Below are positions 36,871-57,699 of a stretch of DNA of 64,000 nucleotides, piece after piece. Source of the DNA: Tausonia pullulans (Eukaryota; Basidiomycota; Tremellomycetes; Cystofilobasidiales; Mrakiaceae); the NCBI GenBank assembly GCA_951802195.1, contig OX637628.1, positions 620,001-684,000 on the forward strand. The letters run 5' to 3'. Numbering within the stretch: position 1 is the stretch's first letter; each line of letters opens with the position of its first letter. The position numbers and the translations under genes are program-made. The notes below the pieces were generated by a model that had not been told where the DNA came from, ran no database searches, and was given only the letters and a program-made list of their open reading frames with translations.

Positions 36871-39800
36871 CTACTGGATAAGGCCCCGGAAGGGCAGCAG
36901 GCGGCCCGCAATCCGGCGGACGCCGCCAAAGACGAGCGGCAAGTTCGAGATAATCGTGTAGGAGCAAACCTGAGAGGAAAGGACAGCGTCAGTGTTAGTG
37001 GGACTCGTCTACGGCAGAAGGAGACGGATAAAGCTCACGAGGAGGAAAATAGGCAGCCAGAACATCCAGAGCATCCGGTCCTGCTTGGCCTTGCGCCGCT
37101 TGGCGGCGTGGTGGCCAAACTTGGCGATCTCGCGGTCGGTGAGCTCTTGGTTAGGCTCGTAGCCAAGCTGTCGACGAACCGACGCTCGGCTGACCGTCGG
37201 CTGGGTCGGCGTCGGCGTCGGCGGCGAGACGGTTGATGTCGAGGCGACCGGCCGCTGCTGCTGCGCTGAGAAGTTCTCGTATGACGGTGGAGGCGTGCCG
37301 GGCACGGCCTCAGCAGCGCGAGAGGTCTTCTTGCCCTTAGTCTTGCGGCCCGGGACACCCTTATCCCCCGAGGGCGAGAAAACGGGTGGCATGCTCGGTC
37401 CCATCTCCTTGATCCACTGGGCGAGCGCAAATGGCAGCCAAGGGTAGACGGCTGTGTAGTGCGCCCACGTCGGCTGCTGCTCATTCGGGTCGACGTCCTC
37501 CTTATCGGCTTGGAACGCCGCTCCCTTGTCCTCGCGCGACCAGGGCATGTACTGATGCAGCTGGGCCGGAAGAGAGGGCAGGTTGCCCGCGGCCATAGCC
37601 ATTGTCGTCGGGAAGGCGAGCGTCGGCATGTCAGAGAGCGTCGGGACCGAGGGTAGTTGAGGGAAGGGGAACTTCTGCTGCGTGTTGGAGAGAGTTCGTC
37701 GGAGCCACGACTCAACCTGATGGTTCGTCGTCGAACCGTTTTTGTCTTTCTCCGATACAGTTCGAATGTCAAGGGACTCCTCGGGGCTGTCCTTGGACGA
37801 GGGCATCTCGGAATGGTGTTGGTGGAGCGAGTGCCGAACCGAGCTGCCGTCTGAATGGTAGCCGTCGTCGAGCGGTCGAGCGGCGTAGAGTGTCGCTTCC
37901 GTCTGCTGCGAGTCGATGGATCCCCGTCTTCGGAGAGCCTTCGCGCCGCGACGTCCGCGGACCATGTAGGGCGCTGGCATAGACGATAGACTACCATTCG
38001 AGTGGGTGGTGATGGAGGGAACATCGTCAAGCCTCTCCTCATCCTCCTCATCCGAGCTCGGGTTGTCGGCGTCGATTGAATCCTCACTCGCGCTCGCCGA
38101 AACGCTCGCAGCCAAGTCGATGCTGGTCAGCTCGGAGGGCCGAGTGCGGGCGAGCAGAAGCTCGACGTCGATATGATCCTTCTCCCGAGCGAGCTCGGCA
38201 GGGGACTTGCCGTCGGCTGTGACGATCTCGTCTGAGGCGCCCGCGTCGAGGAGAAGCCGCGTGCAAGCGACCCGGCCGCAGAGGGCAGAGAGGGCGAGCG
38301 CCGTGTAGCCGTTCCGATCCCGAGAGTCGAGATCAGCGCCAAGGGCTATGAGGTGGGTGACGAGCCGGTGGAAGCCAAGCATGACGGCGAGGTGGAGGAG
38401 CGTCTGACCCTGTCGATTCTTGGTCGAGACGGCCGAGGCGACCTGGGGCGAGGGGAAAGCCGAGCCGGGGAGGTCCGATGTGTCGAGGTCGACGAGCGTG
38501 AGGAAGTTAAGGATGGTGTCCTGGAAATTGCCTCCACGAGAGCCCGTCCCCCAGGGGAGGGTCGCCATCGACGTCGCCGCACTGTTGCCGGTATCATCGG
38601 TCGAGCCCCGTCGGGAGTGCGACAGTGACGCCGAGGAACTATGGTACGCCGCGCGCGAATGCTGCGAATATCCGCCGTCGTTGTTGAAGTGACCTGAGCC
38701 GGTCGATGAGTTCTCGCCGGACGAGCCCTGTCCGACAATCCGGAGAGCGACGTTCTTGGCGTCCTCGATTCGGCCCGTCATCTTGAGACCGACGACCTGC
38801 AAAGCAAGCTCCATGCTGTGGCAGGAGAGTAACAAAGGTGGTCAGTGAATGGGCCCATGACGAACGATACAGTGAAGGAGTTCTCACAGAGCGCGGTCCG
38901 ACGTGTCGAGGTACGTGAAGAGCTGAAGGCCACCCTCAGGCCCGCCAGCGCCACCAGCGGCCCAGATGCCTGAGTCGGCCTTGAAGGTGACGACGACGGG
39001 ACCCGGGCATGAGCTCGGCGGGAGGAGACACACGATAGTGTTCTCACTCCAGATTTGCGTCGAGGTCGCGATCGAGTCGCCAAAGACGCAGGTCAGGCCC
39101 GGGACAAAGTTCTGGCCGAGGATGGTGACCTCGATGCCGCCGTGTACGGGGCCTTCGCCTGGGATGAGCCGAGTGATGCAGGGACGCTGGGGTGGAGCGA
39201 GAGGCGTCTCGCGCGAAGCGCTTGGACGAGGGGTGAGCAGCGCCGTTGAGAACTGGGGCCGACTGAGATTTGGCCACGAGGAGGCGTTCGCCATGAGCTC
39301 ATGCGGAGTGAAAGAGGCTGAGGACGTCGTCGACGTTGTCGACGCAACCGAGGCGTCGCGCGAGTTGTGGTGGTATTGTCGCTGGGAGAGGTCGCAGAGC
39401 GTCGGGGAGGGGATCGATGACGGAGGCGAGGCCGGGAGAGCGAAGAGCGTATCGAACTCAGCCTGTTGTTGCTGCTGCTGCTGTTGTTGCTGTTGTTGCT
39501 GCTGCTGGTTGGCCGCCATCGAGTGCTGCAAAGTAACATCCAGAGCGTACAGGTTGGAAAAGTCTGGAAAGCCCAAGTTCGACCGCTGCTGCTGGCGCGG
39601 CCGGCTGCTCTCGTTCGTCGAGGAGACACCATCATAATCGACGAGCGCATCAAAGGCCATCGCGGCCTCGTCCATCTCCGAGTCCTGGCCTCCCTGCATG
39701 CCGTTGCCGTCTTTAGTCTGGTGTTCGAGAAGCGCCGCCGTCGCCGGGTCGAGGCCGCCCGTGTGGTCAAAGTCCATGAAGCCCGGCTCGTCATACTGGC

Positions 39801-42429
39801 TGCCGGCCGAAGACGGATCATAGACGTTCTCACTCAAGGCCGCCGCCGAGGCTGCATCGCTCATGGCCCCAGCCATAGCGTTTTCTTGCGTCATCTCTCC
39901 CGATAGGATGTCCTTTGGGGTCATCTCGGGTTCCTGTGACGTGTGCCGGCTGATGAGATCGCCTGGGGTACATGTCTCCGGGGGCGGTTCCGAGTTGACG
40001 TTCTGAAGACCGAGGCTAAGAGCACCACCCTCATAGCCCGCCAGCGTCGGGCTCAAGTGGGCGGAACCCAGCCCGCCAGGTCCGAAGATGCCGAGAGGCT
40101 GATTCTGGGCTCCAGCCGGGGAGAGCGAGAGATGGCGGAAAAGCCCGTGGCCCGGGGACGACGCGGCTGACTTGGAAGCGATGGAGAGCGTGCGCGGGGT
40201 CGGCGCCGCGGACGAAGCTGCGGTCGAGGGCGACGGCTTGCGGTCGTACGGCTTCGCCGCCGTGAGCTTGCGGTCGTCGTCCGAGCTCGTCGGTTCGCGC
40301 TGCTTGACCGCTCTCCGAATGCGTGATGCCTTGGTGGCGGCAGCCGCAAGTGGGGAAGTAGCGGGCGGCGGAGGCGAGGGTTGGGAGGGGATGACGAGCG
40401 ACCGAGGGAGCGTCGGGCCGGCCGAGGCAGATTCGGGGCCGCTCTGGTTGGCGGCCGCCTTGTTGGACGTCTTGTGGTCGTCCGTGATCATGATGGGCGG
40501 GGTGAGACCCGAACCGATGACGTTGCCGAGGTGGTCCTTGAGGAGGAACTTGAGGAGGAAGCCCGACTTTTCCCTGTGGTGCCGGCAGTAACACGTCACT
40601 CGGGCGGGGAGCGTGCACTCGCCCTGGCTGAAGTCGATGAGGGCACCGCAGTTGAAGAGGACAATCTTGTGCCGCTCGTCCTGCCCGCCAGTGATGGGCG
40701 AGGCGCCCGGCTTGGCGACGGGGAAGGGGTAGTCGAGGTCCGAGTCGGACAGCGTTGGTCGGATGCGGGCAGCAAGCTTGCGCTGAGCTCGCTTGACCTG
40801 GAGAGGGACGGGAAAGGGTGTTGTCAGCACCTGACAGGAGCAGGACAGAGGCGAACCGGTGCGTTCTTCTCTGCCACACTAGAAGAGCGCGTGCGGGAGG
40901 AGCGAGGGGAAGGGAAAGGAAAAAGGGTGAACGAACCTCTCGTGTCCTGCAGCCCTGGCAGGCATAGACCCGTAGGCCCTCTTTTCGCTCTGCCGACCCA
41001 TCCTCGAATGCAGCGAGTTCCTCCGCCAACACACCCTCGGTCGCACAATAGACCTCGGTTTCGAGGTAGAGCGTCTGCTCTGGCTTGGGAAGACCCGACG
41101 AGTCGCCGGCCGCGCGGCGCGACTTGCGCTTCGTCGCGGTGCCTTTCTGAAGCTTGACGTGCGTGTACGTCGAGACGAATGCGAGGTGCAACTCGTCGTC
41201 TGCCGAGGCGTCCAAAGCTGCAGAAGAAGAAGGCGTCGGAAGCGAGTTGAGGAGGCCACCAGGAGGGTTAGGAAGGGCGAGGGCAAGCCGAATCTTGATC
41301 TGCGTCTCGACCCGGGACTTGGCTCCGGTCCGAGGCACGCCACCGACGATAAGTGGGAGGCTAGGTAGACGCCAGACGAGGAGCAGCGAACGGACAGAAC
41401 AGGGGGAAGGACTGTGGGTCAGACAGGAGAACGTGAAGATGAAGACAAGAGGGGGTTGAGAGGGTAGGAGGCTGGCGAGTGGGGAAGCGCCACATGGAAA
41501 CCCCACGGTGCGGCGAACGCGGGAGGAGACCGAGAGAAGGCAAGCAGGCAGGCCCACTCACTTGCGCGCGCCAGCGGGACCAACGTCGACGAACCGCCTG
41601 CCTGTCATGTTGTCCCGGGTAACCATGCCCACAGTCGGCGAGGAGGCGGCGACAGAGGCCTTGGAGAGGGTGGATGCTAAGAGCTGGCGGCCGTTGGCAG
41701 GCCTGGCGGGGGGGTGGGCTAGCGGATGGTGGAAGCTGGGAAATAGTCGCGAGCGACGAGAGAGCAGGCGAGTCCCGTGCGTCAGCAGCGACCTTGTCAG
41801 CACACAGGCAGGAGGGACGGATAGGAACAAGGACGTCGTCGAGAGACAAGGACAGGGTCCTAGAGGCAAGCGGACTTGAGGAAAGCTCCGCCGACCGACT
41901 AGGTCCGCGCGAAGCAGAGACGAGGCAAGGCAGCGCGCGCGCGCGGGACTCACGAGTCGTCTCCTACGACAGTGACATCGCCCGTCGGGGCAAGCTTCGC
42001 GGCGTCCTCAAAAGGCACGAAGGCAGAGAACGCCGAGGAGGGGGCGAGCGGGTCGTCCAGGTTGGAGAGCGAGGAGGGCGAGGAGTGGTCAGAAGACGAA
42101 GAGGACGCAGTCATCCTCCGGGACAGCAGCGCGAGCGGCGGCTGGTGGTCGCGGACGCGGCGAGCTCGGGCGTAGGTGTGGGAGGCAGGGGTGGTGGTGG
42201 CCGTGGAGAAGGAGGAGGAACACGTCGAGCCGGGAGAAGAGGGCTGAGGGTCGACGGAAGGGTCGTCGGGGGAGGCCTGGTGGTGTTGGATGGCGGGGAG
42301 AGGAGTGGATTGGTCGAATCCACCCAGCGCCTCTGTTGCCGAGGCCTCTCTCGTGGGCGCTGTCGCTGCGGGCGGGGAGATGAGACCAAAGGCCCGCATC
42401 AGGGCATCAAAGTCACTCAGCCCTAACAT
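36871..42429 (-). CDS. Mga2/Spt23-type membrane-tethered transcription factor (IPT + ankyrin + TM)
   Basis: Homologue of the ER-anchored activators that sense membrane lipid saturation and control fatty acid desaturase (OLE1). Order of parts: an N-terminal Ser-rich region starting MLGLSDFDALMRAFG; the conserved block LPLIVGGVPRTGAKSRVETQ with IKIRLALALPNP; HKIVLFNCGALIDFSQGEC; a 15-Gln run; the IPT/TIG domain (RPCITRLIPGEGPVHGGIEV, TILGQNFVPGLTCVFGD); two ankyrin repeats (GQTLLHLAVMLGFHRLVTHL, NGYTALALSALCGRVACTRL); and a C-terminal membrane helix (LWMFWLPIFLLVSFIRLLL) followed by a short tail ending FRGLIQ. About 1,500 residues. A PPPSY motif before the helix is a WW-domain (Rsp5-type) site; yeast Mga2/Spt23 are released by Rsp5-dependent processing. 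Start at 42429; few introns. Confidence 0.85.
39463..39507 (-). repeat. CAG/CAA repeat coding 15 glutamines
   Basis: Fifteen consecutive Gln codons, a mix of CAG and CAA, inside the MGA2-like gene upstream of its IPT domain. The mixed codons suggest a maintained poly-Gln tract rather than a recent slippage run. Confidence 0.9.
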
Positions 42430-46401: not shown

Positions 46402-47915
46402 ATGTTCATCATCGTGCGTCCGGCACAGACGCCTTCGCCAGACATGCTTCCATGCTGACCCGCATCTCTACCTCTTCCAGAACTGGTTCTACGACATTCT
46501 CACCCAGCTTGGTCTGTAGCTTCCCTTGCTCTCCCTCGTCTCCGTCCTCGGGCCTCTCGTCGCGTCGCCCTCGCCAGGCCATCGGTCGCTGACCTTCGCT
46601 CCCGCTCACGCCAGGGCTGATGAACAAAAACGCCAAGATCCTCTTCCTTGGTCTGGACAACGCTGGAAAGACGGTCCGTCCCACCCCGCGGCCATCTTCG
46701 CGCTCGCGCTCGCTCTCTTCCCTTGGGTCGTGTCTTACCCCCCCACCTGGCCACGTGGCCTCATCCAGACTCTTCTCCACATGCTCAAGAACGACAGGCT
46801 CGCCACCCTCCAGCCGACTCTCCACCCGAGTGAGTGTCCGGCTTTGCCTTCGCGCGTCCGCTTGTTGAGCCCTCCTCACGTCAACTCGCTGCGCTGGCTG
46901 CTGGCCTTGGCCAGCCCCTCGCGTGCGCGTGTTCCTGACTGGGTCCTTCTGGAGCTGATGACTTTCTCTCTCCTCCCTCTCTTCCTTCTCCTCCTCTTCA
47001 GCCTCTGAGGAGCTCGCCATCGGAAACGTCAAGTTCACCACTTACGACCTCGGAGGTCACCAGCAGGGTGGGTCATCGGCTCTTCGCGACGGGTCTTCCT
47101 CTCGCATGACCTGGCGAGCTGACCTCTATCGCCTCGTTCTTCCTCCAGCTCGCCGTCTCTGGAGGGACTACTTCCCCGAGGTCGACGGAATCGTTTTCCT
47201 CGTCGACTCCGCCGACACCGACCGTCTCCCCGAGTCCAAAGCTGAGCTCGATGCTCTCCTCTCCATCGAGGAGCTCTCCAAGGTCCGTCGCTCGCTCGAC
47301 GGAAGGCTGACGTGTGGGGACCCCTCTTCCCTTCAGACGTTGATATGGGCTCCCTTCCTTCTCTCAGGTCCCTTTCCTCGTCCTTGGAAACAAGATTGAC
47401 GCTCCCGGAGCAGTCTCTGAGGATGAGCTTCGTGCGTGTCTTGCAGCCCGATCGCGTTGAGCAGTATGATTCGAGCGACACTGACGCCCGCTCGTGTCCC
47501 CTCCGCCGCATCTGCAGGCCACGCTCTCGGTAGGTTTCGCAGCAGCAGGAGTCAGCTGCTAATCTATCTGGCTTGCCGTCTGACCCCATCTATCTCGCGC
47601 TCCCCCAGGCATGTACCAGACCACCGGCAAGGGCATGAAGACCCCGCTCGGTGACATCCGGCCCATTGAGATGTTCATGTGCTCCGTTGTACGTCGCACT
47701 TTCGAGCTGGAGCTATTGACGCATAGCCTGATCGCGTCCATCTTTCTTCTCTGTCCTGAAAATAAAACAGGTCATGAGGCAGGGTTACGGAGAGGGCTTC
47801 CGATGGGTATGTTGTCCCCTCAGTCCCACTGCTGCCTGCCCGCTACCACTTTCGTCCCGCCCCTGACTTGGCTTCCGTCTTTCCCACCTCACAGATCTCG
47901 CAGTACATGAACTAA
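46402..47915 (+). CDS. Sar1, small GTPase of the COPII coat
   Basis: ER-exit GTPase that recruits Sec23/24. The first coding exon is only 12 nt (MFII), followed by [12 protein letters not shown], the amphipathic membrane helix. The P-loop [14 protein letters not shown] is split by an intron after GKT. Switch I has LQPTLHPTSEELAIG, switch II the Sar1-type DLGGHQQARRLW, and then [20 protein letters not shown], the guanine site [44 protein letters not shown] and the end ISQYMN. Full length, about 190 residues. Nine introns, including those around the 12-nt exon at 47518-47529. No odd residues are seen in the nucleotide-binding motifs. Confidence 0.98.
47518..47529 (+). other. 12-nt exon of SAR1 (codes HAL within RHALG)
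   Basis: Bases gccacgctctcg lie between tctgcag and gtaggt. The previous exon ends one base into Arg and the next begins two bases before Met, giving EDEL-RHALG-MYQTTG. This matches the family sequence ELRxALGLYQTTG. Confidence 0.85.
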
Positions 47916-56357: not shown

Positions 56358-57699
56358 CTAGCATCCACCGATCTGCTCGATCATGACTGATTGCGTGGGC
56401 GGCACAAGGGACATAGGTCAAACGGGGAACAGGAGTGGGATGTGGCGCGCCAGTCAAACTCACCCTCGATCTGGGGAACAAGTTATCGAGTGGAGTCGAA
56501 AGAGTTAGCATCGATCAGAAGGGGTTTTTGAGAAGAATAATTTGCTGACAGAGTCCTGAGGTCAAAATGGACAGATATAAAGTCAATTGGTGCGCTTGCC
56601 ACACAGATTGTATCTTCATCACCACGTACATTGTCCTCCATCGACATGCCCTCGGGCGTGTCATCATCGCCGATGGTCTCTCCATCGTAAAGGAATCTGG
56701 GCGATTCAAGGAGGGGGAAAACAACACGTTGTTAGCATGCCTGCTGGCGAGCAACGAGCAAGGCAAGCTCTCGACGGCTTTTGATCCAGTGCGAGAAGAC
56801 CGTTCATGCTTCTATACTTCACTCCTTTCTCTCGCCCTTTGAGAGATATCCAGCTCCTCTCTGGTTGGGAAAAGCGCCAGGGGAGGCGGACCCTTGCCTC
56901 CGGCACGACACGCGGAATGCCGCCAGTGTCGCGCCTTGCCGTCACACGCGCCTTAACGCTCGCCCGCTTCATGGGGAGAGGACAGGGGAGCGCCAGAGTG
57001 GATGGAAGAAGCTGGGGGATCGAGGGAGACAGCAACGTCGCCTGGGCCCTCTCATGCTGCTGCTGCCTCTCCCCCCACGAATTCGAAGTGAGAACGAGCC
57101 CAACGCGTCATCGGTCAACCCATCAACCACCCGATATCTGGGAGACTCCAGCAGCGCGTCCGGTCAAGCCGGCCAGCCCTGCGAACGCGACAACAAATGG
57201 GCCCTGGAGCCAGGAAATACCATGAGGAAGAGCTCGCGACTGACCGGATAGTAGCGACCTGCGAGATGGAGCAGGTGAGCGACGGCGGACGAGGAGAGAG
57301 ACAGACGTCAGCGTGGTGTGCACCATCGGGAGCACGATGCGAGATTGAAGGACACCGACCGTCTTTCCGACACGGTTGGCGTATGCGGCTTTGAGCTGTA
57401 AATGGCCACGAGACAAGACGGCGAAGGGGGAGCGCGATCAGACGGCGAGGGGCGTGAACGAGACGCTGGCGCAGGAATGGAGTGACCTTGGAGAACTTGG
57501 TGGACTTCTTGATCCGGAAGTTGACCTCCTGTCCATCGGACGAGACCACCTCTGTGGTGGAGGAGCATGGAAAGAGGACGAGGGGCGTGACTTCAGAGAC
57601 GCGTATGTTGTCTGCGGAAGGGAGCAGACGACGTGGGCTGAACTCACTGAGGTTGATAGTCTCTCCCTTCTCGGGCTTGGCCTCAGGCTGCTCAGACAT
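56358..57699 (-). CDS. SUMO (Smt3), eight exons including 14-, 6- and 7-nt microexons
   Basis: Ubiquitin-like modifier. The 91-residue product starts MSEQPEAKPEKGETINLKVV, continues SSDGQEVNFRIKKSTKFSKL, KAAYANRVGK-TVATI and RFLYDGETIGDDDTPEG, and ends MSMEDNDSIEVMIEQIGGC. The diglycine is followed by one Cys that a SUMO protease would remove. Exons on -: 57648-57699 (52 nt), 57487-57551 (65), 57360-57395 (36), 57245-57258 (14), 56630-56696 (67), 56550-56555 (6), 56464-56470 (7) and 56358-56386 (29), totalling 276 nt or 92 codons with stop. All introns have GT/AG ends and are 74-107 nt except the fourth, 548 nt. The spliced protein aligns without gaps to yeast Smt3 from the IKK motif to GG. 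Divergent from eRF1. Confidence 0.96.
56464..56470 (-). other. 7-nt exon of SMT3 (Ile-Glu plus one base of Val)
   Basis: Sense bases atcgagg lie between ttccccag and gtgagt. They join the preceding 6-nt exon and the last exon (tcatgatcgag...) to read DS-IEV-MIEQIGG. Introns of 79 nt (with a gctaac branch-like site) and 77 nt flank it. Confidence 0.9.
56550..56555 (-). other. 6-nt exon of SMT3 (Asp-Ser)
   Basis: Sense bases gactct lie between gacctcag and gtcagc, flanked by introns of 74 and 79 nt. They supply exactly the two residues missing between MEDN and IEV; SUMO proteins have Asp-x at this place (yeast MEDNDIIEA). Confidence 0.88.
57245..57258 (-). other. 14-nt exon of SMT3 (Val-Ala-Thr-Ile plus two bases of Arg)
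   Basis: Sense bases gtcgctactatccg lie between tctcgcag and gtcagt. They bridge RVGKT and FLYDG with the exact spacing seen in other SUMO proteins (yeast RQGKEMDSLRFLYDG). The intron downstream is 548 nt and has a ctaac branch-like site near its 3' end. Confidence 0.88.

Follow-up and report, generated by a model that had tools for sequence, protein, structure and literature searches.

Exons of only a few nucleotides are known in fungi, including Sirobasidium, a genus of the Tremellomycetes. In the bglA genes of basidiomycetes, microexons of 5 bp (Sirobasidium magnum) and 6 bp (Rhodotorula minuta) are tabulated (PMC9142197, Table 3). As far as that paper describes them, these basidiomycete genes resemble the SUMO gene analyzed here in having several exons of <30 bp per gene and short introns, although they belong to a different gene family. 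The P450 genes of Phanerochaete, likewise a basidiomycete but an Agaricomycete, are reported to have short introns and exons down to 6 bp, and a tie to alternative splicing was proposed for them (PMC1184071). In plants, microexons of ≤15 nt are described as coding, conserved, and commonly misannotated, and the adjacent 5- and 12-nt exons of rice Os08t0562700 were checked by RT-PCR (PMC8831610). Single-nucleotide exons have been reported for Arabidopsis APC11 (PMC4674806) and Fusarium CYP621A (PMC12940212). Analogous to the exons of the SUMO gene, these ultra-short exons are fixed by the reading frame; according to the two reports, they consist of one base, occur in single gene families, and are proven by transcripts, whereas the SUMO exons are those of a gene model. 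The neighboring microexons of human RPS24 (3, 18, and 22 bp) adjoin as in the SUMO gene, but their alternative splicing is described as tissue dependent (PMC11162997). In a paper on Trichoderma, functional microexons are said to have been previously undescribed in filamentous fungi (PMC11121469). The Phaffia genome paper gives 7.65 introns per gene for the Cystofilobasidiales, the most among the fungi compared there (PMC5103461). Such a number suits the repeated cutting of short genes. Neither microexons in a SUMO gene nor a microexon census of basidiomycetes appeared among the literature matches listed, as judged from titles and the starts of abstracts.

In the intron-dense Tremellomycete Tausonia pullulans, the introns of the single SUMO (SMT3) gene found, which is probably a working gene, very likely cut its 92-codon frame down to exons of 14, 6, and 7 nt, probably included in nearly every mRNA and spliced by intron definition. 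The gene lies on the minus strand of the window (the whole stretch of 64,000 nucleotides that was analyzed), from 57699 to 56358. It comprises eight exons of 52, 65, 36, 14, 67, 6, 7, and 29 nt, separated by introns of 96, 91, 101, 548, 74, 79, and 77 nt, all seven with GT-AG borders, and codes for 91 amino acids and a stop, 92 codons in all. Spliced profile alignment places exon 1 at 57648–57699, with the start codon at 57699; exon 2 at 57487–57551, where a six-frame match agrees; and exon 3 at 57360–57395. Exon 4 (57245–57258), found by the same alignment, is a 14-nt microexon that was missing from the original prediction. It is followed by intron 4 (56697–57244), much longer than any other in the gene; its 548 nt compare with a median intron of 80.5 nt in the survey of other genes described below. 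No Rfam family matched at the gathering threshold anywhere in the window, this intron included.

The C-terminal part of the protein, MEDNDSIEVMIEQIGGC, is assembled from the last four exons. Exon 5 (56630–56696, 67 nt, spliced profile alignment) encodes the stretch from RFLYDG to MEDN. Intron 5 (56556–56629, 74 nt, donor GTACGT, 8.46 bits) separates it from exon 6 (56550–56555), a 6-nt microexon, GACTCT, in phase 0 that encodes Asp79-Ser80. Intron 6 (56471–56549, 79 nt) begins with the weak donor GTCAGC (2.06 bits), carries a CTAAC 38 nt before its end, and closes with a good acceptor (8.06 bits). The 7-nt microexon that follows, exon 7 (56464–56470), reads ATCGAGG and supplies Ile81, Glu82, and the first base of Val83. 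Beyond intron 7 (56387–56463, 77 nt), with the strong donor GTGAGT (10.88 bits), exon 8 (56358–56386, 29 nt) encodes MIEQIGG-C and the stop. Taking a microexon as an internal exon of ≤15 nt with GT-AG introns on either side, the gene model thus contains three, of 14, 6, and 7 nt.

The predicted protein is a SUMO. It is 71% identical to the SUMO of Phaffia rhodozyma (P0001) over its whole length, the best of 49 matches; its PDB matches are SMT3 chains; and it scores 77.7 bits with the Pfam family Rad60-SLD (cut-off 23.8), covering positions 1–72 of the 72 in the profile. The C-terminal Gly-Gly and short tail are present (EQIGG-C-stop), and glycine occupies both Gly-Gly columns in 158 of 159 relatives. 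Phaffia is also the source of the nearest named protein for PEX13, another gene of the window (52%), followed there, among named matches, by Kwoniella and Cryptococcus. Elsewhere in the window, minus-strand frames at 37012–41557 encode an SPT23/MGA2 DNA-binding domain, an IPT/TIG domain, and ankyrin repeats, and probably form one SPT23/MGA2-like gene. One scan of viral contigs found no gene of a relative by which the exons could be dated.

The family itself provides a test of the two smallest exons. A profile was made from 159 of 161 fetched SUMO proteins with the query left out and with P0048 and P0049 dropped by length; part of this set consists of the best 120 of 2957 matches, mostly from Agaricomycetes. 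Between RFLYDG and GG, 154 of the 159 proteins have a spacing of 33 residues, the value also obtained here when both microexons are included; the five exceptions are one protein with 30, one with 36, and three that do not have the motif or the GG. Asp79 and Ile81 are each present in 158 of the 159, and columns 79 and 80 are gapped in none. Spliced profile alignment, in which splice sites entered only as GT and AG, arrived at the identical eight exons when each intron cost 2, 4, 6, 8, 10, or 12 bits. Exhaustive enumeration with a minimum intron length of 40 nt and no more than three introns gave seven models compatible in length, of which six are free of stops and one has D79, I81, and E/D82; the model with D79, I81, and E82 leads by >40 bits after splice sites are added. 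The original prediction had proposed the last four exons of this structure, with their lengths, those of the three introns between them, GT/AG borders, phases, and the 92-codon total, and the re-derived gene model reproduces all of these exactly; the assignment to SUMO and the two consecutive microexons are likewise well supported. One listed protein of the family is cut short: in Peniophora sp. CBMAI 1063, the SUMO P0040, one of three Peniophora entries listed, ends two residues past MEDN. P0102 (99 aa), which bears the same name, is longer, and P0040 is possibly misannotated near the border that corresponds to the end of exon 5.

Protein fit by itself was examined with shuffled versions of the 243-nt stretch that separates exon 5 from exon 8. 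An equal fit arose in 1, 81, and 1831 of 20,000 such versions when the intron penalty was 2, 6, and 10 bits, and in 0, 19, and 1856 of 20,000 in a second set in which the outer 6 nt were kept. For microexons, a test by fit alone has little power, as shuffles equaled it in 313 of 1000 cases for a candidate exon of SAR1 and in 303 of 1000 for a UBC gene (L049); it was therefore combined with splice-site strength. In the second set, the two together were equaled in none of the 20,000 shuffles at any of the three settings. By a splice-site model trained on 114 introns that the same aligner had predicted, five of the six sites of introns 5–7 rank no lower than the 39th percentile of the training introns, and the donor of intron 6 ranks at the 4th, with a score that 24.7% of the window's GTs equal. 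Donors beside microexons score 7.91 bits compared with 7.24 for introns between large exons, and acceptors 6.71 compared with 6.34 (SUMO's five included in both comparisons); sites beside the surveyed microexons had been used in exon finding only as GT or AG. The means over all GTs and all AGs of the window are −0.25 and −1.35 bits. The textbook 5′ splice site has A at position +4. The commonest 5′ splice site in the survey is GTGCGT, with C at +4, in 23 of the 114 training introns; despite this C, a match to Pfam PF05971, presumably the METTL16-type family, is present on contig C14.

When the intron penalty is raised to 15 bits, the aligner favors a model without either microexon, in which exon 5 is extended as far as a donor at 56622 and spliced directly to exon 8; the product, MEDNVRVMIEQIGGC, lacks two residues. 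Such a gene would have two introns fewer. We consider it very improbable, since the near-invariant D79 and I81 are lost together with the 33-residue spacing, two good acceptors and the gene's best donor are left unused, and the model falls outside the seven that are compatible in length. The small exons might instead be real and be skipped. Without the 7-nt exon, or without both, the frame runs into a TGA in the opening codons of exon 8, and the Gly-Gly tail is lost. If only the 6-nt exon is skipped, the frame is maintained at the cost of Asp-Ser, and the shortened protein still reaches 65.9 bits with Rad60-SLD. The 6-nt exon would then be a cassette exon; in part or most of the mRNA, a 159-nt intron would be removed between exons 5 and 7, to give an in-frame SUMO that lacks Asp79-Ser80. 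The weak donor of intron 6, placed beside the good donor of intron 5 and the good acceptor of exon 7, points the same way. Donors of only 4.4 and 3.2 bits, however, also follow the predicted 6-nt exons of CDC42 and ARF1, and neither column of the dipeptide is gapped in any of the 159 SUMO proteins, with the aspartate missing from just one. A cassette exon is thus unlikely, and inclusion of both microexons is the preferred reading.

The odd structure of the gene, and nothing more, could suggest a decayed copy with the real SUMO gene elsewhere, which we find scarcely credible: the eight exons run without a stop, a frameshift, or a broken GT-AG border. Nor was a second SUMO gene found in the 23.9 Mb genome, where each of the three SUMO matches with an E value of ≤1 proved to be an exon of the gene at 57699–56358. 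A search of the genome with the Rad60-SLD profile gave seven other places and missed the SUMO gene itself, because its exons are too short. Six of the seven places lie in ubiquitin-coding loci (contigs C13, C5, and C7); the seventh, on C10, reaches only 26 bits against SUMO and has no Gly-Gly end in the matched stretch. The Ulp1-type SUMO protease family is also represented in the genome, by two adjoining exon matches to PF02902 on C7.

The SUMO gene is not alone in its small exons. Using human reference sequences, 84 loci (L001–L007 and L013–L089) were surveyed from five families: small GTPases, Arf proteins, E2 enzymes, PPP phosphatases, and ubiquitin. Twenty-eight loci with <50% identity or <120 bits were left out, and the other 56 were reduced to 30 genes by shared protein sequence. 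This sample, which is biased toward short and very conserved genes, contains 148 internal exons, of which 16, in 13 of the 30 genes, measure ≤15 nt and eight measure ≤9 nt; among genes aligned at ≥60% identity, 11 of 24 have an exon of ≤15 nt. The ubiquitin genes L006, with no exon of ≤15 nt, and L007, with one of 11 nt, lie on other contigs and were merged into L001 and so are uncounted. The 11-nt exon of L007 (contig C7) encodes IQK near the C-terminus. For comparison, a plant study cites 106 coding microexons for Arabidopsis (PMC8831610), against the 16 in 30 genes here. Outside the 30-gene count, no internal exon of ≤15 nt was found in the aligned parts of actin (one stretch left out) and beta-tubulin (without its N-terminus) or in PEX13, which aligned poorly at its N-terminus.

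Likely microexons include a 6-nt exon in CDC42 (L013, MQTIKC-VV-VGDG), a 5-nt exon in RAB11 (L015), a 6-nt exon in ARF1 (L068), and a 7-nt exon in UBC13 (L051). In RAN (L017), two likely microexons of 14 and then 7 nt are adjacent. A 9-nt exon is predicted for RAC1, and exons of 15 and 11 nt for a UBC4-like gene. SAR1, at 46614–47809 on the plus strand of the window, has a possible 12-nt exon at 47518–47529. When each of the 16 exons was shuffled together with its two introns, protein score and splice sites were jointly equaled in none of 1000 shuffles; protein score alone was equaled in 0 to 313, the highest value being that of SAR1. The smallest candidate comes from an ARL1-like gene on the minus strand of locus L069 (contig C16); the best alignment there calls for an exon of just 2 nt, GC, at positions 1746–1747 of the locus. 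It is flanked by introns of 61 and 94 nt with an acceptor of 8.4 bits and a donor of 7.3 bits, and it yields an alanine that human ARL1 shares; protein score alone was equaled in 72 of 1000 shuffles, and the sequence suggests that this is possibly a true 2-nt exon. The rarity implied by the original prediction for the SUMO exons finds no support here, because other genes carry exons of 5–7 nt and RAN has two microexons in a row.

From the sequence, frame, family fit, and splice-site quality, and from the absence of a second copy among the matches, we infer that the SUMO microexons are included in the mRNA. Introns would have fragmented the conserved SUMO frame finely enough to leave exons of 14, 6, and 7 nt. 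Recognition would take place across each intron, with U1 at the 5′ site paired with U2/U2AF ∼75 nt downstream, at the branch point and 3′ site. After the removal of one intron, the microexon beside it would belong to a larger exon. Introns 5–7 (74–79 nt) are near the survey median, and exons of only 6–7 nt do not offer the length that exon-spanning pairing requires, so that intron definition is the simplest reading. The original prediction had further held that three introns in a row must be chosen by intron definition, and in order. Intron definition does appear likely; a required order does not follow from the sequence, since whichever intron is removed first, a microexon becomes joined to a larger exon. 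Intron 7 is probably removed first, because it has the strongest donor, and removal of intron 6, whose donor is the weakest, is probably a slow, leaky, or error-prone step. Recognition across each intron leaves unexplained the long introns beside microexons, namely the 548-nt intron that follows the 14-nt exon of SUMO and those of 610 and 714 nt that precede two surveyed microexons. Searches of the genome for SRRM_C, the domain of an animal microexon regulator, and for U1 snRNA gave no match, but the control genomes gave none either, so that these negatives carry no weight.

With tiny exons published for basidiomycetes, plants, and Fusarium, the SUMO microexons are a well-supported further case of a known phenomenon, with parallels in basidiomycetes and plants. 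The density of microexons in this genome is a more interesting lead than the SUMO gene itself. Tentatively, and with a little less than even confidence, we suggest that this yeast lineage has on the order of at least 1000 constitutive exons of ≤15 nt, down to the 2 nt of ARL1 and often several in a row, which would place its genome among the most microexon-dense known, with intron definition as routine. If so, many core genes would be misannotated in its relatives; in this genome, standard annotation may truncate or frameshift core genes. The minimum size of an internal exon, and the splicing of several such exons in a row, is a mechanistic question that has mostly been studied gene by gene, and a yeast with many microexons in its core genes would let intron definition and the order of splicing be tested directly.
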